A DNA stretch of 64,000 nt from Leptolyngbya sp. 'hensonii' (lineage in GTDB: Bacteria > Cyanobacteriota > Cyanobacteriia > GCF-001939115). The number at the start of each line of letters is the position of its first letter. The first letter of the stretch is position 1. Below, in pieces: positions 24,165 through 44,952 of the stretch. The position numbers and the translations under genes are program-made. Below the pieces are notes generated by a model. The model had not been told where the DNA came from. It worked only from the letters and a program-made list of their open reading frames with translations, and did not search any database. The stretch is taken from contig NZ_MQTZ01000041.1 in NCBI RefSeq assembly GCF_001939115.1, forward strand, positions 62,001 to 126,000. The letters run 5' to 3'.

Positions 24165-24194
24165 GTACAGAATGTATCTTTTGTAACTCAAGAA

Positions 24195-24222
24195 AAACCC
24201 TCGATCCTGTGATCGAGGGTTT
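24195..24222. terminator. Bidirectional intrinsic terminator
   Basis: AAACCCTCGATC-CTGT-GATCGAGGGTTT, a perfect 12-base stem with a 4-base loop, between the convergent TPR and map genes. A- and T-rich flanks on both strands suit termination in both directions. Confidence 0.85.
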
Positions 24223-24327
24223 CATAATCAGGGTGCATCTACCATCCACTTATTCCGTACAGATGAAGCTGATCAGGAAGATTTTTAAAATTTGGCTGAA
24301 CAATTTCCGTAATTTCCGTAAAACCCA

Positions 24328-33588: not shown

Positions 33589-36500
33589 TTATGGCTTGAC
33601 TGGTGCTGGCGATGAAGTGTCAACCACCTTTAGCTCTCCCTGGTGATGCCCATTCTGCATCTGGCGCGTGGCCAGATACTGATACATCTGCCAGCGGGTC
33701 GTGACATCTGCCTGGGCCAGTTGGACGAGGTGTTTGGCCTCCTCTGGCTTGCTGAGGGTGAGCATCTTAAAGCGATTCTCCCGATATAGCACGTCCTGAA
33801 CGGGCAGTTTGGGCGATCGGGAATCCAGCAGGAGCGGGTTCTCACCCAGTTCTGCTCGGCGCGGATCGTAGCGGTAGAGCAACCAGCGGCCCGACTCAAC
33901 CATCGCTTTCTGCTGTTGTAGACCTGTGGTCATGTCAATCCCATGGGCGATGCAGTGGGAATAGGCAATGATCAAGGAGGGGCCATTGTAGGATTCCGCC
34001 TCTAGGAAGGCTTTGAGAGTATGTTCATCCCTGGCTCCCATGGCTACACTGGCTACATAGACATTGCCATAGCTCATGGCCATCAGCCCTAGGTCTTTCT
34101 TGGGCGTGGGTTTTCCGCCAGCAGCAAACTTGGCCACCGCTGCCCTGGGCGTTGCCTTGGACATCTGCCCGCCGGTATTGGAGTAAACCTCCGTATCCAG
34201 CACCAGGATATTGACATTCCGCCCACTGGCCAGAACATGGTCGAGGCCCCCATAACCAATGTCATAGGCCCAGCCGTCTCCCCCGATCAGCCAGACACTC
34301 TTCTTGACCAGATAATCCGCTAGAGCCTGTAGGGTTTGCAATTTACTCCGGAGAGGATCTGTTGCTGCCAATTCAGCCAGCCACTGCTCCAGACCCTGTT
34401 TCAGGGAAGCCACCCGCTCCCGCTGGGCGACAATATCGGCCTCATCCACTTGCTCTGCCTGCAGAAGCGCGATTGCTAAATCTACAGGAATGGGAATCCC
34501 CGCGCCCCGATCGATCACCAATTCCTGCAACAATTCCCTCGCATAGTCCTGCTGCTTGTCGATCGCCACCCGGAAGCCCAGCCCAAATTCCGCGTTGTCT
34601 TCAAACAGGGAGTTGGCCCAGGCTGGACCCCGCCCTTCCCCGTTATGGGTCCAGGGGGTGGTGGGCAGGTTGCCCCCGTAGATGGAAGAACAGCCTGTGG
34701 CATTGGCAACGAGCATGCGATCGCCAAACAGTTGGGTTGCCAGCTTGATGTAGGGCGTTTCGCCACAACCGCCACAGGCTCCCGAGAACTCAAACAGGGG
34801 TTCCTGCATTTGCTGATGGGCGATCTTGTGTAGATTCAGGTGACTGCGATCGGGATTGGGCAGATTGAGGAAAAAGTCCCAGTTCTGCTGTTCCTGTTCC
34901 CGCAAAGGTAGCTGGGGAACCATATTGAGGGCCTTTTTGCGGGGTTCAGCCCGATTTTTTGCTGGACAGACATCCACGCAAACACCGCAGCCCGTGCAAT
35001 CTTCCGCTGCCACCTGAATCGTGAATTTCAGGTCGCTCCAGTCATGGTCCCTGGCAGCGGCATGTTTGAAGTGATCTGGAGCCTGAGCCAGGGACTCTGG
35101 TGCATACACCTTAGAGCGAATCACCGCATGGGGACAGACCATGACACACTTGCCACACTGCACACAGACCTCTGGATCCCATTCTGGAATATCCTGGGCA
35201 ATATTGCGCTTCTCCCATTTGGAGGTGCCACTGGGATAGGTGCCATCGATCGGCAGGGCACTGACCGGAATGCTATCCCCCTGGCGCATCATCATGGCCC
35301 CCAGCACATCTCGGACAAAGGCAGGTGCTGCATCCGAAATCGGAGACTGCAGAGCCTGCACCCCACTGGACGGAATTTCCTGATAGCTACTGTAATCCAC
35401 CTGATGTAGGTTTTCCAGGGTCTGATCAACCGCTTTCAGGTTCATGGTCACCACCGCTTCGCCCTTCTTGCCGTAGGTCTTGCGGATGGATTGTTTAATC
35501 TGCTCGATCGCCGACTTGCGGGGCAATACACCCGCCACAGCAAAGAAACAGACCTGCATCACCGTATTGATCCGGCCCCCCATGCCCGCATCTCGCGCCA
35601 CCTGGGAGGCATTGATCACATAGAATTTCAACTCCTTTTCCCGAACTTCTGCCCGGAGTAATTCGGGGAGTCGCATCCAGGTTTCTTCCGGTTCGTAGGG
35701 ACTGTTGAGCAGGAAAACCGCTCCCGGTTGGGCCGCTTCCAGCAGGTCAAATTTCTCGACAAATTCCCACTGATGGCAGGCCACAAAGTTAGCCCGACTG
35801 ATCAAATAAGTAGAGCGAATCGGTTCAGGCCCAAAGCGCAGGTGAGAAACTGTGACTGAACCAGATTTCTTGGAATCGTAAACGAAGTAGCCCTGGGCAT
35901 TGTTCTCTGTCTCTTCTCCAATAATCTTGATCGAGTTCTTATTGGCTCCCACGGTGCCATCTGAGCCTAACCCAAAGAAGATTGATCGGACGATCGCCTC
36001 CGATTCAGTTGAAAACGCGGGGTCAAAGGGCAGGGAAGTCTGGGTGACATCATCGTGAATCCCTACCGTGAAATGATTCAGGGGTTTCTCTGCGGCCAGA
36101 TTATCGAAGACCGCTTTCACCATAGCCGGGGTAAATTCCTTGGAGGATAGGCCGTAGCGACCCCCGACCACCCGAATCTGTTGCCGCTGGGCTTCTACCA
36201 GGGCACTCACCACATCCAGATACAGGGGCTCCCCGCCACTCCCCGGCTCCTTGGTGCGATCGAGGACCGCGATCTCCCTTGTGCTCTGGGGCAAGGCAGC
36301 CACAAATTGCTGCATATCCAGGGGCCTGTACAGGCGCACCTTTAACACCCCAACCTTTTCCCCCTGAGCCTTCAGGTAATCCACTGTTTCGTGGACGGTT
36401 TCGCAACCGGACCCCATCAATACGATCACGCGCTCTGCCTGAGGATCACCGTAGTACTCGTAGAGATGGTACTGGCGTCCGGTTAAGCGGGCAAATTCAT

Positions 36501-37245
36501 CCATGGCCTCCTGGACGATCGCTGGACAGGTTTCATAGAAGCGGTTCACAGACTCACGGGCCTGGAAATAAACATCCGGATTCTGGGCTGTGCCGCGAAT
36601 CACGGGTCGATCGGGGGTCAACGATCGGGCACGATGGGCCAGAATCAGGTCGTTGGGGATGAAACTCCACAAGGCTTCGTCCGGGATCAGGGTAACTTTT
36701 TGCACTTCGTGGGAGGTACGGAAGCCATCGAAGAAGTGCAGGAAGGGAATGCGGGAGGCGAGGGTGGCCCTGGTGGAAATTGCGGCAAAGTCCTGGGCTT
36801 CCTGAACCGAGGCCGAACAGAGGAGGGCACAGCCCGTCGATCGCACAGCCATGACATCACTGTGATCCCCAAAAATGGAGAGGGCTTGGGCTGCCAGCGA
36901 TCGGGCTGCAATGTGGATGACTGCAGCCGTCAGTTCTCCGGCGATCTTGTACAGGTTGGAGATCATCAGGAGCAGGCCCTGGGAGGCGGTGAAGGTCGTC
37001 GTCAGAGTCCCAGCCTGTAAAGCTCCATGGACGGTTCCGGCAGCACCTCCTTCGCTCTGCATTTCCACGATCGCAGGAATAGTGCCCCATAGGTTAGGTT
37101 GGGCTGCAGCGGCCCAGGCATCAGCCCATTCCCCCATCGGAGAAGCAGGGGTAATGGGATAAATGGCAATGACTTCACTGAGGCGATAGGCAACACGAGC
37201 GACTGCTTCGTTGGCGTCAATGGTGGCAAAATTTTTGGAGGACAT
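33589..37245 (-). CDS. nifJ: Pyruvate:ferredoxin (flavodoxin) oxidoreductase
   Basis: The 1218-residue protein has the fused PFOR domain order: domain I (NFATIDANEAVARVAYRLSE), domain II, domain III, a two-cluster ferredoxin domain (CVQCGKCVMVCPHAVI and CTGCGVCVDVCPAKN) and a C-terminal thiamine pyrophosphate domain (GACGGCGETPY and GGDGWAYDIGYGGLDHVLA). It decarboxylates pyruvate to acetyl-CoA and reduces ferredoxin or flavodoxin under dark, anoxic or nitrogen-fixing conditions. A good ribosome-binding site (AAGGAGCGG) precedes the ATG. It lies directly downstream of the hox operon, on the same strand, 249 bases away, and is followed by the dihydroorotate dehydrogenase-like gene. Confidence 0.97.
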   Translation of the reverse strand: MSSKNFATIDANEAVARVAYRLSEVIAIYPITPASPMGEWADAWAAAAQPNLWGTIPAIVEMQSEGGAAGTVHGALQAGTLTTTFTASQGLLLMISNLYKIAGELTAAVIHIAARSLAAQALSIFGDHSDVMAVRSTGCALLCSASVQEAQDFAAISTRATLASRIPFLHFFDGFRTSHEVQKVTLIPDEALWSFIPNDLILAHRARSLTPDRPVIRGTAQNPDVYFQARESVNRFYETCPAIVQEAMDEFARLTGRQYHLYEYYGDPQAERVIVLMGSGCETVHETVDYLKAQGEKVGVLKVRLYRPLDMQQFVAALPQSTREIAVLDRTKEPGSGGEPLYLDVVSALVEAQRQQIRVVGGRYGLSSKEFTPAMVKAVFDNLAAEKPLNHFTVGIHDDVTQTSLPFDPAFSTESEAIVRSIFFGLGSDGTVGANKNSIKIIGEETENNAQGYFVYDSKKSGSVTVSHLRFGPEPIRSTYLISRANFVACHQWEFVEKFDLLEAAQPGAVFLLNSPYEPEETWMRLPELLRAEVREKELKFYVINASQVARDAGMGGRINTVMQVCFFAVAGVLPRKSAIEQIKQSIRKTYGKKGEAVVTMNLKAVDQTLENLHQVDYSSYQEIPSSGVQALQSPISDAAPAFVRDVLGAMMMRQGDSIPVSALPIDGTYPSGTSKWEKRNIAQDIPEWDPEVCVQCGKCVMVCPHAVIRSKVYAPESLAQAPDHFKHAAARDHDWSDLKFTIQVAAEDCTGCGVCVDVCPAKNRAEPRKKALNMVPQLPLREQEQQNWDFFLNLPNPDRSHLNLHKIAHQQMQEPLFEFSGACGGCGETPYIKLATQLFGDRMLVANATGCSSIYGGNLPTTPWTHNGEGRGPAWANSLFEDNAEFGLGFRVAIDKQQDYARELLQELVIDRGAGIPIPVDLAIALLQAEQVDEADIVAQRERVASLKQGLEQWLAELAATDPLRSKLQTLQALADYLVKKSVWLIGGDGWAYDIGYGGLDHVLASGRNVNILVLDTEVYSNTGGQMSKATPRAAVAKFAAGGKPTPKKDLGLMAMSYGNVYVASVAMGARDEHTLKAFLEAESYNGPSLIIAYSHCIAHGIDMTTGLQQQKAMVESGRWLLYRYDPRRAELGENPLLLDSRSPKLPVQDVLYRENRFKMLTLSKPEEAKHLVQLAQADVTTRWQMYQYLATRQMQNGHHQGELKVVDTSSPAPVKP

Positions 37246-37493
37246 AGTCCGCTCCTTGTAGCAGAGTTAGAGCAGTTGAGGTCAGAAGTTTTTTAATCAG
37301 CCCAGCAGATTAGGGATAGGCTTTTGATAAAACTGCAGAAGTGCAGAACGTTTTTTGTAGAGGGTTTGATCAGAAGGGAAAACCGCAGAGACGCGGAATA
37401 CGCAGAGGTGATACCGTGCATTTGTGCTGGGGTTATCTCTTTCTAAGGCTAGAAAAAGAATATGAGGATCTTGTGAGTGTTTGGGGGCAACCT

Positions 37494-37949
37494 TTATGGA
37501 TAACCGACAAAATTCTTGATTTTTTCTAAAGCGATGTAACAACAATTTGCAGTGGTTTGGGAAAAAATTTCGCCTAACTCAAAATTGCTGGCTGGGATCA
37601 AAAGGTGATAGGCAACTGGGTTGGCTTGATAGAGGGTGGAGGCCAGGGCCAGTAGCGATCGGGGATGGGCAAAATGGGTGGTAAAGGTTACGGTTAAATC
37701 CACCTCTAGAGGTTGAAAAATGACCTCACTAGATATTGTTGTGGCATCAATAAAAATCACGGTTTCAGTCTGGGCGATCGCAAGGGCCAGATCAGGGGTT
37801 AATTGGTGTACGGCCTGCGATCTCAGCGGTGCCCAGTCCCATTGAGAAATCGTCTCTGCGACCCAGTATCCGGCTCCGTCATCGCTCCGCAGGGTGTTGC
37901 CATAGCCAATGACGAGATAGGGAATTTTGTCGGGATCAGCAGTATTCAA
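37494..37949 (-). CDS. hoxW: Hydrogenase maturation protease HoxW
   Basis: The protein of 151 residues begins MNTADPDKIPYLVIGYGNTL and has the hydrogenase-protease motif GYGNTLRSDDGAGYWVAE, VIFIDATT and a histidine in FAHPRSLL, which together bind Ni in the precursor. It cuts the C-terminal tail of HoxH once nickel is inserted. TTG 37949 (with AGAGGT upstream) overlaps the end of the phosphatase gene by 14 bases; the open frame extends 16 more codons. It is the last gene of the hox operon. Confidence 0.86.
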   Translation of the reverse strand: MNTADPDKIPYLVIGYGNTLRSDDGAGYWVAETISQWDWAPLRSQAVHQLTPDLALAIAQTETVIFIDATTISSEVIFQPLEVDLTVTFTTHFAHPRSLLALASTLYQANPVAYHLLIPASNFELGEIFSQTTANCCYIALEKIKNFVGYP

Positions 37950-39114
37950 TGGTGACCTCTCGCTGCCGACTACGCAGGAATTGCACCAGATCTTCAATTA
38001 AACTGCGGCGGATAGAAATATTTTTGGGCAACAGAGGATTTTGATAGAACTCATTGATACTTTGACCCACCAAGAAATGCACTGAATCGGCCTTCAGAAT
38101 CTCTCTGGCTAACAGATAAGCCCCATTGTTGTCAAAATGTAACCGACTCAGGTCGCCACTGGCATTTTTAATATATTCAGTGGCCTTAGAAATGGTCAGA
38201 ATCCCTTCTGTGACCAAATCGACATAACTGAGGGTTCCGATCGGGGGTAATTCTTTGCGAATTGTGGATAGATCGATCTCAATACTTTCTCCTAAATAGT
38301 TCGCCATAATATTTCCAGTAGTGCCGCCACAAATCACTTTCCGACCTTTAAAGTTGAGAAATTTTTCAACATACAAGTCGTCTCTATTGTGATCCAGGGG
38401 AGGGCCAGTAAAAATAATCAGGGGGTTGCGGCGTCGCACGTAAATCCCGACCAGAGTGGCATCATCCCCAATTTCTCCTTGATAAAGGGAGTAAGTTTTC
38501 TGCAGCACATCGCGCCCGATCGTTCGGGCCGTATGGGATTTCTGGCCTAAAATTCCTTCAACATATTCAGCAATCTGTTCCCAACCCCAACCAAAATTGA
38601 GGGTGACACCCATGCCAGCATAGAGCACCCCATCACTGACCGCACAGAGGAAATCTCCCCGGTGTAATTCTCCATGGGCCAGGGAAATTTTACGATCCAG
38701 AATTTGTTCCGTATGGGTCTCCAGTTGCACGACTTTGCCCTGATGAAAATAGAGGGGAGCAGGGTTATCAAAGTTAATCACCGTGAACCGATTCGTCTCG
38801 ACATCAACCTGAATAATGGTGAATGTAGAATAGGCGATTTTGCGAACTTTGCAGATTGGCAGGGTAGCAATAATTGTCTTCAGAACTTCTTCTAAAGAGA
38901 CATCTGCATCCAGCATTGTCAGCAGAATCTCAGTCGTTAGAGTCGCTAGAATACTGGCTTTCACCCCACTGCCCAGGCCATCAGAAAGCACGATCGTGAC
39001 TTTCTTATCCGTCTTTAGATATTTCACTTTGTCACCACAAAGCTCCTCACCTTTTTTCGTCAGGCTGGCTTCATAAATATCTAAAAAATTATCCGTGGTG
39101 ACGGTGCAATACAT
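37936..39114 (-). CDS. SpoIIE-type serine phosphatase of the hox operon
   Basis: The 392-residue protein has a PP2C/SpoIIE phosphatase domain in about 1-228, with metal-binding aspartates D28 (CGD), D45 (SDGLGSG), D161 (VSDGVLY) and D217/D218 (GDDATLVG), so it should be active. The C-terminal 160 residues (from about 230) form a second, unrecognised domain with VICGGTTGNIMANYLG. SpoIIE phosphatases normally dephosphorylate a serine on an anti-sigma antagonist. Here the gene is between the PAS gene and hoxW, which ties it to hydrogenase control. No partner kinase or anti-sigma protein is encoded nearby. Confidence 0.88.
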   Translation of the reverse strand: MYCTVTTDNFLDIYEASLTKKGEELCGDKVKYLKTDKKVTIVLSDGLGSGVKASILATLTTEILLTMLDADVSLEEVLKTIIATLPICKVRKIAYSTFTIIQVDVETNRFTVINFDNPAPLYFHQGKVVQLETHTEQILDRKISLAHGELHRGDFLCAVSDGVLYAGMGVTLNFGWGWEQIAEYVEGILGQKSHTARTIGRDVLQKTYSLYQGEIGDDATLVGIYVRRRNPLIIFTGPPLDHNRDDLYVEKFLNFKGRKVICGGTTGNIMANYLGESIEIDLSTIRKELPPIGTLSYVDLVTEGILTISKATEYIKNASGDLSRLHFDNNGAYLLAREILKADSVHFLVGQSINEFYQNPLLPKNISIRRSLIEDLVQFLRSRQREVTIEYC

Positions 39115-39123
39115 AATCCGACT

Positions 39124-39630
39124 TCAAAGCGGATGGTTTTCCAGGATTTGAATAATCTTAAACAAATTGACCTTCGTTTCAGCCGTTGTCTCACCCAGTA
39201 GCCCAGCAATTTCCTGCACCACTTTCATCTGGTTATCTACGACCTGATTGACTTTTTCGATCGTTTCACGCTTCAGTTTGTCAAATTCCCGTTTTTGCAT
39301 TAATTCATGGCTAATATCTACCAGAATTGAGGCAATCACTCCTTCACTTTCGATCGCAAAGAAAACCTGTTTCACATAGAGATTATGTTTTGGATATTCC
39401 TTGAACTTTCCTCGAATCACCAGATTCTGCTGCCAGGTTTTTTTGAAATCCTCCACATCGTCAAAAATAGCTTCTGCGGGCTGGCCGATCAGGTCTTTTA
39501 GTTCTAGTTGAAACATTTTGCAGAAAGCCGGATTGGCCAGCCGAATATACAGATCTGGATCAACGACAATTAACCCGTTCGGATCATAGTCCCACAGTAA
39601 TTTCCAGAGATGATCGGGTTCGTTGAACAT
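39124..39630 (-). CDS. PAS-domain protein with QEIAGLLGETTAETK tail
   Basis: The 168-residue protein has a PAS domain (about 10-110: WDYDPNGLIVVDPDLYIRLA, IGQPAEAIF, AIESEGVIASILVDIS), a short helix and the tail QEIAGLLGETTAETK (139-153). From memory, this tail and domain order occur at the C-terminus of PAS-containing sensory [FeFe] hydrogenases. Here the hydrogenase part is absent and there is only one cysteine (C37), so any cofactor would have to be bound by the PAS fold itself. The gene is 9 bases from the phosphatase gene. It probably senses redox or ferredoxin state; function inferred. Confidence 0.8.
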   Translation of the reverse strand: MFNEPDHLWKLLWDYDPNGLIVVDPDLYIRLANPAFCKMFQLELKDLIGQPAEAIFDDVEDFKKTWQQNLVIRGKFKEYPKHNLYVKQVFFAIESEGVIASILVDISHELMQKREFDKLKRETIEKVNQVVDNQMKVVQEIAGLLGETTAETKVNLFKIIQILENHPL

Positions 39631-39726
39631 GGTGAGAATTTGTTCGCAGCAAAGGCGCAGAGGACGGATTGACCGCAGAAGTCCAGAGGAGAGAGAGAAG
39701 AAGATCCTCCGTGTCTCTGCGATCTA

Positions 39727-39996
39727 TTAACAGGAACAGACGGTTTGAATCGCCGGGAGGATTTCTCGGACAAATATCTCGTCCAGGTTTTGAGGACTGA
39801 TATTCATAAAGTGCTGGTCTCGAAACTTCATGGTGATGCCGTTACTGCAGATTTCTAAACAAAATGATCCTTTCAGGGTGACGCTGTCTTCCAGTTGGTG
39901 CTCTCGCATCAGGGCTTGGAGTCGTGGTAACACTTCGTATACTCCCAGTTGATGACAGGCAGATCCCATACAGAGGAATAAGGGTTCTTTAGTCAT
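39727..39996 (-). CDS. [2Fe-2S] thioredoxin-like ferredoxin
   Basis: The 89-residue protein has CMGSAC (C9, C14) and CLEIC (C46, C50), the four-cysteine pattern of thioredoxin-like [2Fe-2S] proteins, related to NuoE/HoxE. Two more cysteines end the chain (C87, C89). Its start is at ATG 39996, 9 bases after the hoxH stop codon, and the 96-base gap to the PAS gene contains a CGCAGAG-type short repeat. It likely passes electrons between HoxF/HoxU and the regulatory PAS or phosphatase proteins; partner not known. Confidence 0.85.
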   Translation of the reverse strand: MTKEPLFLCMGSACHQLGVYEVLPRLQALMREHQLEDSVTLKGSFCLEICSNGITMKFRDQHFMNISPQNLDEIFVREILPAIQTVCSC

Positions 39997-40005
39997 GGTC
40001 CAGCC

Positions 40006-41442
40006 TCAATTTCGATACACTTCATCCACCACATGACCATCGGGAGCCACCAGTTGAATGTGGAGGGGCATCTGTCCGACCGCATGGGTGGAACAGGACA
40101 GGCAGGGATCAAAACATCGGATCCCGGCTTCAACTCGGTTCAGCAAGCCTTCTGGAATGGAAGCCCCACCATCTTGACCCTGAATGTAGGAGCGGGCAAT
40201 TTGAGCCACCGTCTGGTTCATGGCCAGATTATTTTGCCCGGTTGCAATAATCAGGTTCACTTTCTGGATCAAACCATCCTCATTGACCTGGTAGTGGTGA
40301 AACAGGGTTCCCCGTGGGGCTTCGCTCACGCCCACGGCCTCTAACTGGTTCACACCCCCATGGGCCCGTACCCGACTGGAAACAATATCCGGATCGTCCA
40401 TCAAGATTTGAATCTGCTCCAAGGCCGCCAGGATCTCAACCAGGCGGGCATAGTGGTACAGGAAGGATGAAGTCGGCACCCCGCCCGATCGGTCACGCAA
40501 TTCTTTGAGTTCTCGATCGGCGGCTTCTGTCCCAATGTGGCTGCACACATTCAACCGGGCCAGGGGACCGACCCGGTAGATCCCAGCAGGATAGCCCCAG
40601 GGTTTGTAGTAAGGAAATTTCAGATAGGACCAAGGCTCAACAGCTTCCCCGAGAAAATCTTCGTAATCGTCCTCAGACAGATGATCTGCCACGATGTTGC
40701 CCTGACTATCAGTGAAGCGGAGATGCCCCCCATAATGCTCCCATTCCCCTTCCGGGCCAACCAGACCCATGAACAGAGAGGGGAAAGCCCCAAAAATATT
40801 GACCTCCTCCTTAAGGGGACCGTCAATTAACTGTTTGAAAAGTCCCAGAGCCAGGTAGAGGGTGTCAAAAGATTCCGGCAAGCGATCGCAAATCCATTGC
40901 CGACCTTCCTCCGTCAGGGGCGATCGGACTCCCCCCGGTACAGTCCAGGCCGCATGAATTTTGCGGGCTCCCAGTAATTCGATCACGGTCTGGCCAAACT
41001 GCCGCAACCGAATGCCTGCCCGGGCCAGATCCGGGTCAGACTCAATTAATCCAAACACATTGCGCTTAGCCGGATCACTATCCCAGCCCAGTAGAAAATC
41101 AGGGCTGCTCAGGTGAAAAAAGGAAAGAGCATGGGACTGGGTAATCTGGGCCAGATTCATCAACCGCCGCAGTTTGTCTGCCGCCGGAGGAATCTTTACC
41201 GCCAGAATTTTGTCACCCGTTTTCGCCGATGCCAGCAAGTGGCTGACCGGACAAATGCCGCAAATCCTTGCTGTAATTCCTGCCATCTCGGTGAAGGGTC
41301 TACCTTCGCAGAACTTCTCAAAACCCCGGTATTCCACGACGTGAAACCGCGCATCAGAAACTTCCCCCCCATCATCGAGAAAAATCGAGATTTTGGCGTG
41401 TCCTTCAATCCGGGTCACTGGGTCAATGACAACAGTTCTCAT
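40006..41442 (-). CDS. hoxH: Bidirectional [NiFe] hydrogenase large subunit HoxH
   Basis: The 478-residue protein begins [20 protein letters not shown] and has [10 protein letters not shown] near the N-terminus and DPCLSCSTH near the C-terminus; these four cysteines bind the Ni-Fe centre. A 25-residue tail after the histidine ([17 protein letters not shown]...) is the part removed by HoxW. ATG 41442 has AGAGAGG upstream and matches family length; 9 more residues are open further upstream. It lies 50 bases after hoxY. The complex makes or uses H2 with NAD(P)H or ferredoxin/flavodoxin at the cytoplasmic/thylakoid side. Confidence 0.97.
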
Positions 41443-41492
41443 AATGCCTCTCTTCTGGGTGGCTGTCACTTATTGGTTATTATTTTTTGCCA

Positions 41493-42041
41493 TTAGCCAA
41501 ACTTGATCATCTCGCGCCCTTCCATAACAGGCATTTCACCGCGTAGAAGCGGTTCCAGGGTGGCTTTGATCCGATCGGCGGGTGGTGGGCATCCCGGCAT
41601 ATAGATGTCCACCGGGACAACCTGGTGGACAGGCCAGACTTGGTCGAGTAGTTCGGGAACAATGCCCGGTTCATGGGGCAACTGGCGGCTTCCGTCAGCC
41701 AGTTCCAGATAGGACCGCTTTAAGACCGCATCAGCGCTACCCAACATATTCCGCATCGCTGGAACATTGGCAGTGACGGCACAATCCCCAAAGGAGATCA
41801 GGATTTTTGTCTGCTGGCGGACTTTTTGAATCAATTCCAGGTTTTCTTCGTTGGCGATCGCCCCTTCCACTAGGCAAACATCGACATTTTCAGGATATTC
41901 CTTCAAATCCGACCCAACCGGACTGAACACCACTGTGACCTGCTGCGCCAGATCAATTAGCCACTCATCCAGATCCAGAAAAGACATGTGGCAACCAGAA
42001 CAGCCAGCCAACCAGACGGTAGCGAATCTTATCTTGTCCAT
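41493..42041 (-). CDS. hoxY: Bidirectional [NiFe] hydrogenase small subunit HoxY
   Basis: The 182-residue protein has AGCSGCHMSFLD, SFGDCAVTAN and PGCPPPADRI, the four cysteines that ligate the proximal [4Fe-4S] cluster of hydrogenase small subunits. It has no signal peptide, as expected for a cytoplasmic Hox enzyme. The ATG overlaps the hoxU stop by 13 bases. It passes electrons from HoxH to the HoxEFU diaphorase. Confidence 0.96.
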   Translation of the reverse strand: MDKIRFATVWLAGCSGCHMSFLDLDEWLIDLAQQVTVVFSPVGSDLKEYPENVDVCLVEGAIANEENLELIQKVRQQTKILISFGDCAVTANVPAMRNMLGSADAVLKRSYLELADGSRQLPHEPGIVPELLDQVWPVHQVVPVDIYMPGCPPPADRIKATLEPLLRGEMPVMEGREMIKFG

Positions 42042-42745
42042 TCGTGCTTCTCCCGTGCCTGCATCAAAAATTCCAGCTTGTTGCGATCTCTGGTTTTCTC
42101 ACCGGTCGTTTCACTCTTCCGGAAAATGGCTCCTGTAGGACAGGCATCCACACACTTGCCACAGGATGTACAGGCATCCACCTCTCCCCAGGGCTGATGC
42201 AACCCAGATACGATCATGCAGGCCGCTCCCCGCTGGGCTACATCCCAAACATGGGCTCCTTCAATCTCGTCACAAACCCGGACACAGCGCGTACAGAGAA
42301 TACAGCGGTTGTGGTCAATCCCAAACTGGGCATGGGACACATCCACTTTGCGATCGGGAAACCGGTAGGGAAAGCGCGAATGATCCATCCCCACTTGAAT
42401 CGCCACATTCTGTAATTCACAGTTGCCATTGGCCACACAGATGGCACAGACATGATTCCCTTCAGCAAACAGCAATTCCACCACCATGCGGCGATAGTCC
42501 TGCAGTTTGGGTGTGTTGGTGTGAATGTCCATGCCTTCAGCCACCTGGGTGACACAGGCTGGGAACAGTTTAGGACTCCCGGTCATTTCCACCATACAAA
42601 GGCGACAGGCTCCGATGGGTGTTACCCCTTCCAGATGGCACAGGGTAGGAATGGGTACCCCCGCCTCCCGAACTGCCTGGAGAACCGTTGCACCTTCTTC
42701 GATCGCCACATCAATTCCATCAATCTTGAGTGTTTTGACTGACAT
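42029..42745 (-). CDS. hoxU: Hydrogenase diaphorase subunit HoxU
   Basis: The 238-residue protein has an N-terminal [2Fe-2S] ferredoxin domain (CHLEGVTPIGACRLC), a His-Cys3 region (CAICVANGNCELQ) and two [4Fe-4S] sites (CILCTRCVRVC and CTSCGKCVDACPTGAIF). It is the NuoG-N-like wire between HoxF and HoxY. ATG 42745 is preceded by GAGGT; the frame is open 26 codons further upstream. It follows hoxF by 7 bases. Confidence 0.96.
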   Translation of the reverse strand: MSVKTLKIDGIDVAIEEGATVLQAVREAGVPIPTLCHLEGVTPIGACRLCMVEMTGSPKLFPACVTQVAEGMDIHTNTPKLQDYRRMVVELLFAEGNHVCAICVANGNCELQNVAIQVGMDHSRFPYRFPDRKVDVSHAQFGIDHNRCILCTRCVRVCDEIEGAHVWDVAQRGAACMIVSGLHQPWGEVDACTSCGKCVDACPTGAIFRKSETTGEKTRDRNKLEFLMQAREKHEWTR

Positions 42746-42752
42746 AGTTACC

Positions 42753-44384
42753 TCATGAAGATTGCGAAACGGAAACCTTACCGTTATCAGCAGCCGGAGC
42801 CTGAAGTAACTCCAGATACTCATGCTTGAAATACTTCAAGGTGCTAAGCACAGGGTTGGGAGCCGTCATCCCCAATCCACACAGGCTCATCTCCCGCACC
42901 ATATGGCAGAGGGACTCCATTTTCTCCAGATCAGCCTGGGTAGCTTCCCGGTTCATAATTTTGGTCAGCATGGTGAACAACTGGACGGTGCCGGTGCGAC
43001 AGGGCACACATTTGCCGCAGGTTTCGCCTCGGCAAAACTCCATATAGAACTGGGCAATTTCCACCATGCTGGTTTCGTCGTCCATGACAATCATGCCGCC
43101 CGATCCCATGATGGTGCCTAACTTTTGTAGGGATTCATATTCAACCGGTGTATCCAGCAAGTCTGCTGGGATACAGCCCCCCGACGGTCCCCCAGTTTGA
43201 ACGGCCTTGACCCGACCCCCATCAGGAACCCCACCCCCCATTTCTTCCACAATTTGCCGCAGGGTGGTCCCCATTGGGACTTCAATCAGACCTGCATTGT
43301 TCACCTTACCAGTTAAGGCAAAAACCTTCGTCCCCTTGCTTTTCTCAGTGCCAATGCCAGCGTACCAATCCCCCCCATTGCGGATAATTGGGGCAATGTT
43401 GGCATAGGTTTCCACGTTGTTGATCAGGGTGGGACAGCCCCACAGACCCGACTGGGCTGGATAGGGGGGTCGGGGTCGGGGATTGCCGCGCCCACCCTGA
43501 ATCGACTGAATCAGGGCTGTTTCTTCCCCGCAGACAAAAGCTCCAGCTCCGATGCGAATATCAATTTTGAAATCAAACTGAGATTCAAAGATCTGGCTAC
43601 CGAGAAGCTCGTATTTCTTCGCCTGCTGGATCGCCTTTTGCAGGTGTTTGATGGCCAGGGGATACTCGGCCCGCACGTAGATGAAGCCGTGGTTCGCACC
43701 CACGGCATAGCCTGCGATCGCCATCCCTTCCAGAATCCGATGGGGATCGCTCTCCAGCACACTGCGGTCCATGAAGGCACCGGGATCTCCTTCATCGGCA
43801 TTGCAAATGACATACTTCTGGCCAGGGGGCATCTTGGCCACGGTGGACCACTTCAACCCGGTAGGATAGCCCCCCCCACCCCGTCCGCGCAGGCCACTCT
43901 TCGTCACCTCTTCGATGACTTCCGCGGGCGTCATTTCCGTCAGGGCATGATGTAGTTGTTCGTACCCCCCAACCGCAATATATTCTTCAATTCGTTCCGG
44001 ATCGATCTTGCCACTGTTTTCCAGCACGATCGGCATCTGCCGCATGAAAAAGGGATGGTTGGGATCCCCTTGCATCGGGGTAGCCGTTCCTCCTTGCAGG
44101 GCCGCAATGATCGAAGGCGCATCTTCTGGGGTCACCTGCTCATAGAGGGTCTGGCTGGAGTCCACTTCTACCAGGGGGCCTCGCCCACAGAAGCGCATAC
44201 AGCCCACACTGCAAACCTCGACCTCAGCCTCTAGTTCCGCACTCTGAACGGCTGCTTCCAGACCATTGCGCACTGCTGCAGAGCCAGAAGACAAACAACC
44301 TGCCGCAGTACAGCAACGAATGCGAGTCGGTTTGCGCCGATCGCGTTCTTGCTGAGCGATTTCATGCAATTCCGTAATATCCAT
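42753..44384 (-). CDS. hoxF: Hydrogenase diaphorase subunit HoxF (NAD(P)H, FMN)
   Basis: The 543-residue protein has a short N-terminal [2Fe-2S] region ([12 protein letters not shown] and [12 protein letters not shown]), then the NuoF-like part with [16 protein letters not shown] (NAD(P)H/FMN site) and [14 protein letters not shown] ([4Fe-4S]). It oxidises or reduces NAD(P)H for the hydrogenase. The gene follows hoxE by 19 bases. Length and layout match cyanobacterial HoxF. Confidence 0.97.
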
Positions 44385-44403: not shown

Positions 44404-44952
44404 TTATTGCTGTTCTAAAACCCGCACCTTATCTAAAGCAGCTTCAGGCGTCTGCTTACCGCTCACAGCGCCATCAATCACAATGGCAGGCGCAATTCCA
44501 CAGGCTCCTAAACACCGGGCGGCCATCAAGGACACCTGGCCATCCTGAGTCGTTTCTCCCACTTTGATCCCCAGTTCCGCCTCCAGGAGGGCAAGCAATT
44601 TACTGGCTCCCTTAACATGGCAGGCTGTGCCCAAACAGACGACACAGGTATGGGTACCATTGGGCTTCAGGGAAAACAGATGGTAAAACGTAGCCACCCC
44701 ATAGACCCGACTGAGGGGCAATCTCAGCCCTCTGGCGATATAGAGCAGCACGTCTTCTTCCAGGAATCCAAACGCCTCTTGAGCCTTGTGCAACACTTCA
44801 ATCAGGGCATCTGGTTGATGCTGATGCCGTTTCATCGTCATATCCAATGATTTGAAGCGGCGATCGACCGTTGCACCATTGACGGTGGATTGAGGACGCG
44901 AGTTTTTTGCAGTAGCCTGGGGAGATTGGTTTTGCAGCGATGAAGAAGGCAT
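44404..44952 (-). CDS. hoxE: Hydrogenase subunit HoxE
   Basis: The 182-residue protein has the NuoE-like thioredoxin fold with [2Fe-2S] ligands in CLGTAC and CLGACG. The first 40 residues (SSSLQNQSPQATAKNSRPQS) are polar and variable; a start at the second methionine group is possible. HoxE links the diaphorase to the complex and to ferredoxin. It is the first gene of the operon, with the promoter in the upstream spacer. Confidence 0.95.
   Translation of the reverse strand: MPSSSLQNQSPQATAKNSRPQSTVNGATVDRRFKSLDMTMKRHQHQPDALIEVLHKAQEAFGFLEEDVLLYIARGLRLPLSRVYGVATFYHLFSLKPNGTHTCVVCLGTACHVKGASKLLALLEAELGIKVGETTQDGQVSLMAARCLGACGIAPAIVIDGAVSGKQTPEAALDKVRVLEQQ

Follow-up and report, generated by a model that had tools for sequence, protein, structure and literature searches.

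In the hfsABCD operon of Thermoanaerobacterium saccharolyticum, HfsB is a HydS-type protein, HfsC a serine phosphatase and HfsD a hydrogenase (PMC5707799, PMC11837493). Deletion of hfsB raises hydrogenase activity and deletion of the whole operon lowers it, from which the authors infer a role in regulation; hfs mutants show altered adhE and rex transcripts along with the altered hydrogenase activity, and the genetic data that we found on regulation by hfs/hydS sets concern only Thermoanaerobacterium species, T. mathranii and Clostridium thermocellum (PMC5707799). In Ruminococcus albus, a sensory hydrogenase and a putative phosphatase are co-transcribed with hydrogenase and AdhE-type genes (PMC6776011). 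A further point of comparison is offered by RsbU and RsbP, in which a linker helix attached to the catalytic domain gates the phosphatase, RsbP being a PAS-helix-PPM protein in one chain (PMC12143880). Four papers on cyanobacterial hydrogenases make no mention of a phosphatase in hox clusters (PMC5186783, PMC4463661, PMC2674450, PMC3858816), and a text search of the open-licence literature returned no description of the cyanobacterial gene trio characterized here.

We analyzed a window of 64,000 nt from Leptolyngbya sp. 'hensonii' (contig NZ_MQTZ01000041.1, positions 62,001 to 126,000). A sequence-only reading had placed a four-cysteine [2Fe-2S] protein, a PAS protein carrying QEIAGLLGETTAETK and a SpoIIE phosphatase with intact metal aspartates between hoxH and hoxW, and all three genes were found there with the features described (Table 1). 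Read along the minus strand, the order is hoxE-F-U-Y-H, [2Fe-2S] protein, PAS protein, phosphatase and hoxW, with nifJ and a dihydroorotate-dehydrogenase-like gene further on; nifJ is also found near hox loci that have no trio. The gaps are short (9 nt from the hoxH stop to the ferredoxin gene, 96 nt from there to the PAS gene, and 9 nt from PAS to phosphatase), hoxW probably starts with a TTG at about 37949 that overlaps the phosphatase stop, and a search for minus-strand terminator-like sites between hoxH and hoxW returned none. On these grounds co-transcription of the trio with the hox genes is plausible. As in the hfs/hydS gene set, a ferredoxin, a PAS protein and a SpoIIE phosphatase are encoded together with a hydrogenase. 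Two CTCTGCG-rich intergenic stretches (window 39640-39720 and 37360-37440) resemble dispersed short repeats, and the first falls within the trio, between the ferredoxin and PAS genes. Elsewhere in the window, a single-copy Rfam match to NsiR1 (nitrogen stress-induced RNA 1) lies at 24189-24244 on the minus strand (52.7 bits, cut-off 39).

Table 1. Features of the hox locus, in window coordinates.
Feature	Coordinates	Strand	Remarks
[2Fe-2S] protein, 89 aa, thioredoxin-like	39727..39996	-	ligands C9, C14, C46, C50; Pfam 2Fe-2S_thioredx below cut-off
PAS protein, 168 aa	39124..39630	-	PAS (about 15-107) and 59-residue helix (107-165), QEIAGLLGETTAETK at 139-153
SpoIIE-type PP2C phosphatase, 392 aa	37936..39114	-	PP2C 8-228; alpha/beta domain 229-392
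hoxH, [NiFe] large subunit	40006..41469	-	
hoxY	41493..42041	-	
hoxU	42029..42823	-	PRK07569 over cut-off
hoxF	42753..44384	-	
hoxE	44404..44952	-	PRK07571 over cut-off
hoxW, hydrogenase maturation protease	37494..37949	-	TIGR00072 over cut-off; start overlaps phosphatase stop
nifJ, pyruvate:ferredoxin oxidoreductase, context neighbour	33589..37245	-	named from own sequence

The four cysteines of the small protein are invariant across 23 relatives and form the CX4C...CX3C ligand pattern of thioredoxin-like [2Fe-2S] ferredoxins; judged from this alignment, the cluster ligands are retained. Since PF01257 (2Fe-2S_thioredx) scored 21.1 bits against a curated cut-off of 24.8 (E = 3e-4), the label 'thioredoxin-like' is drawn from the ligands and a weak profile match only. 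The phosphatase matched SpoIIE (PF07228) well above cut-off (E = 6.6e-19, 69 bits vs 25), and its metal-binding aspartates D28, D45, D161 and D218 are invariant in 44 relatives. PP2C was recognized both by sequence (E = 4.9e-18) and by fold (E = 2e-15; 5mqh, 3t91, 3pu9, 3w40), and the structural model (mean pLDDT 90) adopts the PP2C fold from its very start, with no N-terminal linker. On sequence evidence the phosphatase retains its metal site and is devoid of a regulatory N-terminus. It shares PP2C with stage II sporulation protein E, RsbX and other SpoIIE-fold phosphatases, but the sequence match to these spans only residues of about 6-225, and the stage II sporulation protein E equivalog TIGR02865 scored 52 bits against a cut-off of 490.8. 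The remaining 164 residues (229-392; window 37936-38430, minus strand) are confidently modelled as an alpha/beta domain in which GPP, CGGTT and TEG motifs are conserved. This domain has no Pfam match and no PDB sequence match, and a Foldseek search with the whole phosphatase model gave only PP2C among the 50 matches listed; it may serve to bind a ligand and be peculiar to SpoIIE proteins linked to hydrogenases.

The PAS protein carries PAS_9 over cut-off (Pfam, E = 1.5e-7), and in its model residues 107 to 165 form a single helix. Across 29 sequences from many phyla, mean column identity rises from 0.61 for the PAS core to 0.85 for the output helix, and the helix motif, at 0.96, is the most conserved stretch of the protein. 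The 168 residues align end to end with the C-termini of HydS, QEIA-x-LLGE being common to both, and the alignment covers the HydS PAS domain and helix only. PF02906, the H-cluster domain, is missing from the protein itself and from all 17 trio-bearing cyanobacteria searched (the source genome and 16 others), as expected from the earlier claim that no [FeFe] gene accompanies the trio. By these comparisons the cyanobacterial protein corresponds to the PAS domain and output helix of HydS minus the H-cluster domain. In the non-photosynthetic sister lineage, as in Firmicutes, the phosphatase homologue follows a protein of about 570 aa made up of ferredoxin clusters, an [FeFe] H domain (PF02906 E = 8e-47 in the HydS-type protein of L043), an FeS motif and then PAS plus helix. 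The proposed relationship of the trio to the ferredoxin/HydS/SpoIIE set of [FeFe]-hydrogenase operons is therefore borne out by alignment and annotated loci. A third arrangement occurs in two Deltaproteobacteria, where Cache, HAMP and receiver domains precede the PAS-helix in one fused protein and the same ferredoxin and phosphatase adjoin (L179, 5671-7971, by domain scan; L191, from 1736, by length and similarity); no [FeFe] gene was found in either genome. As the helix motif stays constant with three different inputs (H-cluster domain, Cache-HAMP-receiver, or none), the simplest reading of the alignments is that the PAS helix is the shared output to the phosphatase. A threonine phosphosite within the motif (T148/T149) was also considered and is not favoured; both residues are not kept in gut-lineage HydS.

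A HoxH match at E <= 1e-50 was present in 127 of the 390 Cyanobacteriia genomes drawn, and a phosphatase match at E <= 1e-20 in 26. Every carrier has HoxH (hypergeometric 3e-14, computed over genomes that shared ancestry makes non-independent), and about 80% of Hox cyanobacteria are without the trio. It adjoins hoxH in 17 carriers, is intact elsewhere in five (G402, G554, G564, G599, G617) and is dispersed in four members of one family (G109, G119, G151, G187). No ferredoxin or PAS orthologue was seen near 14 trio-less hox loci. In whole-genome profile searches, PAS (E < 1e-60) and ferredoxin (E < 1e-36) orthologues were present in each of the four genomes with a dispersed trio and in two with an intact one, and neither was found in seven Hox genomes lacking the phosphatase, where the best scores belonged to HoxE/HoxF-like or general PAS proteins. 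The three genes are hence retained or lost together whatever their linkage, and in the tested genomes the trio behaves, on profile evidence, as an all-or-none companion of Hox. Its recurrence in dozens of genomes shows that the arrangement is not due to chance. AdhE precedes the trio in Pleurocapsales LEGE 06147 (Pfam-verified) and, by sequence resemblance, in Spirulina subsalsa.

Presence in most hox operons together with a tree like that of HoxH had been named as the outcome that would speak against a transferred regulator. The first part did not hold, only 26 of the 127 HoxH genomes carrying the trio; the second largely did, since SpoIIE distances track those of HoxH (r = 0.85, slope about 1.0, reached by 0 of 2000 permutations; 37 carriers), which makes the trio an old, co-inherited companion and no recent import. 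On the HoxH tree, trio-bearing and trio-less genomes are interspersed (10 changes vs a shuffled mean of 12.5), as would be seen after a single early acquisition followed by many losses, or if the trio had been transferred jointly with hox.

The possible transfer from anaerobes, read as descent from clostridial sets, found no support. A tree built from 98 phosphatases places the cyanobacteria in a single clade (100*), itself within a starred clade of 47 composed solely of cyanobacterial and other short-PAS sets, and a careful tree of 36 phosphatases agrees (cyanobacteria 100/99*; with short-PAS sets 98/96*); the root of these trees, and hence the direction of transfer, is not fixed. Grouping with clostridial/Firmicutes HydS sets, as direct descent from them would have it, was rejected (AU p = 2e-5), and the cyanobacterial clade is instead nested among hydrogenase-less sets of about a dozen phyla. 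Vertical descent from the non-photosynthetic gut sister lineage, most sampled genomes of which have HydS sets, was likewise rejected (AU p = 0.011, weaker because of a long branch). Transfer from a widespread Chloroflexota set was not supported either, a close homologue being detected in only 2 of 350 Chloroflexota genomes. On the sequence comparisons, then, the clostridial donor fails and kinship with the sets of the [FeFe]-hydrogenase family holds.

A GTDB contig scan with annotation located the hydrogenase-less 'short PAS' set in Chloroflexota, Armatimonadota, Thermodesulfobacteriota, Verrucomicrobiota, Planctomycetota, Omnitrophota, KSB3, Thermotogota, Fusobacteriota, Fibrobacterota and Cloacimonadota. 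Because the Fibrobacterota and Cloacimonadota sets fall outside the main short-PAS clade in the 98-phosphatase tree, this form arose or was lost more than once. In L135 (Aggregatilineales) the set comes immediately after HydC-HydB-HydA, the genes of an [FeFe] enzyme (PF02906 E = 2e-98), a position equivalent to that after hoxEFUYH. A Hox-like [NiFe] large subunit, with [FeFe] not detected, was found in Longilinea (56%), Ornatilinea (52%), a Verrucomicrobia MAG (68%) and a Desulfobacteraceae MAG (60%), several of these genomes being incomplete MAGs; attachment to a [NiFe] enzyme need therefore not be a cyanobacterial novelty. Non-cyanobacterial neighbours include Rex-like genes at 12 loci (L142 Pfam-verified) and AdhE-like genes at 10. 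In Anaerolineaceae, Rex lies directly upstream of the set (L142, 6528-7226; L158, 6811-7452, the latter by resemblance) with nfnAB-like genes divergent, which suggests a redox regulon. Of the two divergent phosphatase sets on one deltaproteobacterial contig (L181), one is found with HydS and the other with a HydABC-type operon. No conserved kinase or anti-sigma partner was seen among the neighbours of 67 loci.

We are practically certain of the identity and family assignment of the trio, and consider it highly probable that it is a regulatory unit tied to Hox; we also regard a regulatory role linked to phosphorylation as likely. The explanation we prefer, and regard as somewhat probable, is a three-protein signalling module that accompanies Hox and whose signal reflects the electron or H2 state of fermentative metabolism. 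The ferredoxin would exchange electrons with the Hox diaphorase (HoxE/HoxF) or with the cellular pool, and its redox state, or a ligand, would alter the PAS domain; redox sensing by the trio is putative. The long C-terminal helix of the PAS dimer would then dock on the PP2C domain and gate the phosphatase in trans, taking the role of the RsbU/RsbP coiled-coil linker. This gating step, in the form stated, seems to us just on the probable side. The phosphatase would in turn dephosphorylate a Ser/Thr-phosphorylated regulator, a STAS-like antagonist or other, which would adjust expression of hydrogenase and fermentation genes. The source genome does have several HATPase_c_2 and STAS genes (RsbW/STAS-like), none linked to the trio locus, and we did not adopt them as partners as they are not specific.

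It is also conceivable, though we think it unlikely, that control is directly post-translational, the phosphatase acting on a Hox subunit (or PFOR) and switching activity instead of expression. The clustering with enzyme genes in 17 of the 26 carriers and the unit slope against HoxH would suit such an arrangement, but the phosphatase family serves catalytic subunits that are unrelated to one another ([FeFe] and [NiFe]) and other inputs as well, dispersed and remote trios are kept, and adhE and rex transcript levels change in hfs mutants (PMC5707799).

A more specific version of the preferred signalling module, to which we give equally low credence, makes the Hox complex itself the sensor: the ferredoxin would draw electrons from HoxEF and relay their redox state to PAS, replacing the HydS H-cluster. 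The H domain is missing where the signal could come from an adjacent enzyme, the ferredoxin is retained in every case, and the diaphorase subunits preceding the L135 trio are homologous to HoxEF; against this, the trio persists far from hox too, and the ferredoxin accompanies HydS as well, so it need not be a replacement part. We regard as equally doubtful the proposal that the metabolic Hox enzyme, by way of a dedicated [2Fe-2S] protein, controls a stand-alone PAS-helix protein, which would gate a serine phosphatase in trans. It would apply to cyanobacteria and perhaps also to other phyla that have Hox-like [NiFe] enzymes but no [FeFe] gene. We know of no description of such a signalling mode for [NiFe] hydrogenases; if true, it would amount to the HydS pathway in a split and hydrogenase-less form.

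The location between hoxH and the protease gene hoxW, and the hypA/hypB-like genes that follow in L121 and L124, could point to a set of hydrogenase assembly factors, yet most Hox cyanobacteria do without the trio and the set also serves [FeFe] enzymes, whose maturation differs, making this a very improbable role. That the trio is a functionless hitch-hiking remnant of a lost [FeFe] system, as the absence of an [FeFe] gene from the carriers searched might imply, is scarcely credible given the invariant catalytic and cluster residues, the strict co-retention even in dispersed genomes, and the commonness of the hydrogenase-less form across phyla.

To our knowledge, the HydS signalling route is not settled and Hox regulation is little known outside a few cyanobacterial model strains. 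The trio makes both testable: culturable cyanobacteria (Arthrospira, Planktothrix, Spirulina) have the output side of HydS signalling, PAS helix and phosphatase, on its own, and a single helix motif stands out as what probably passes the signal to the phosphatase. Its genes are candidates for H2 yield in biotechnology species, and altogether the results suggest a means of tuning hydrogen metabolism that has not been described before.

Compared with known systems, the trio resembles RsbP/RsbU of the general stress response in combining PAS and a helical linker that would, by analogy, control a PP2C-type phosphatase. It differs in that sensor-helix and phosphatase are separate proteins from separate genes, whereas PAS, linker and PPM share one chain in RsbP, and in the extra C-terminal domain of its phosphatase. 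HydS (group C; Thermotoga maritima, PMC10055695; Ruminococcus albus, PMC6776011) has PAS with the same C-terminal helix motif, and in the HydS loci aligned here ferredoxin and SpoIIE phosphatase genes are adjacent, as in the cyanobacterial trio; HydS additionally has an H-cluster domain, two [4Fe-4S] clusters and an FeS motif, all three of which the cyanobacterial PAS protein is without. The closest functional precedent is the hfsABCD operon of Thermoanaerobacterium, which likewise encodes a PAS-bearing protein and a serine phosphatase with a hydrogenase; there the PAS protein has an [FeFe] domain and its partner enzyme is [FeFe], whereas here the H domain is absent and the enzyme is the [NiFe] hydrogenase Hox.
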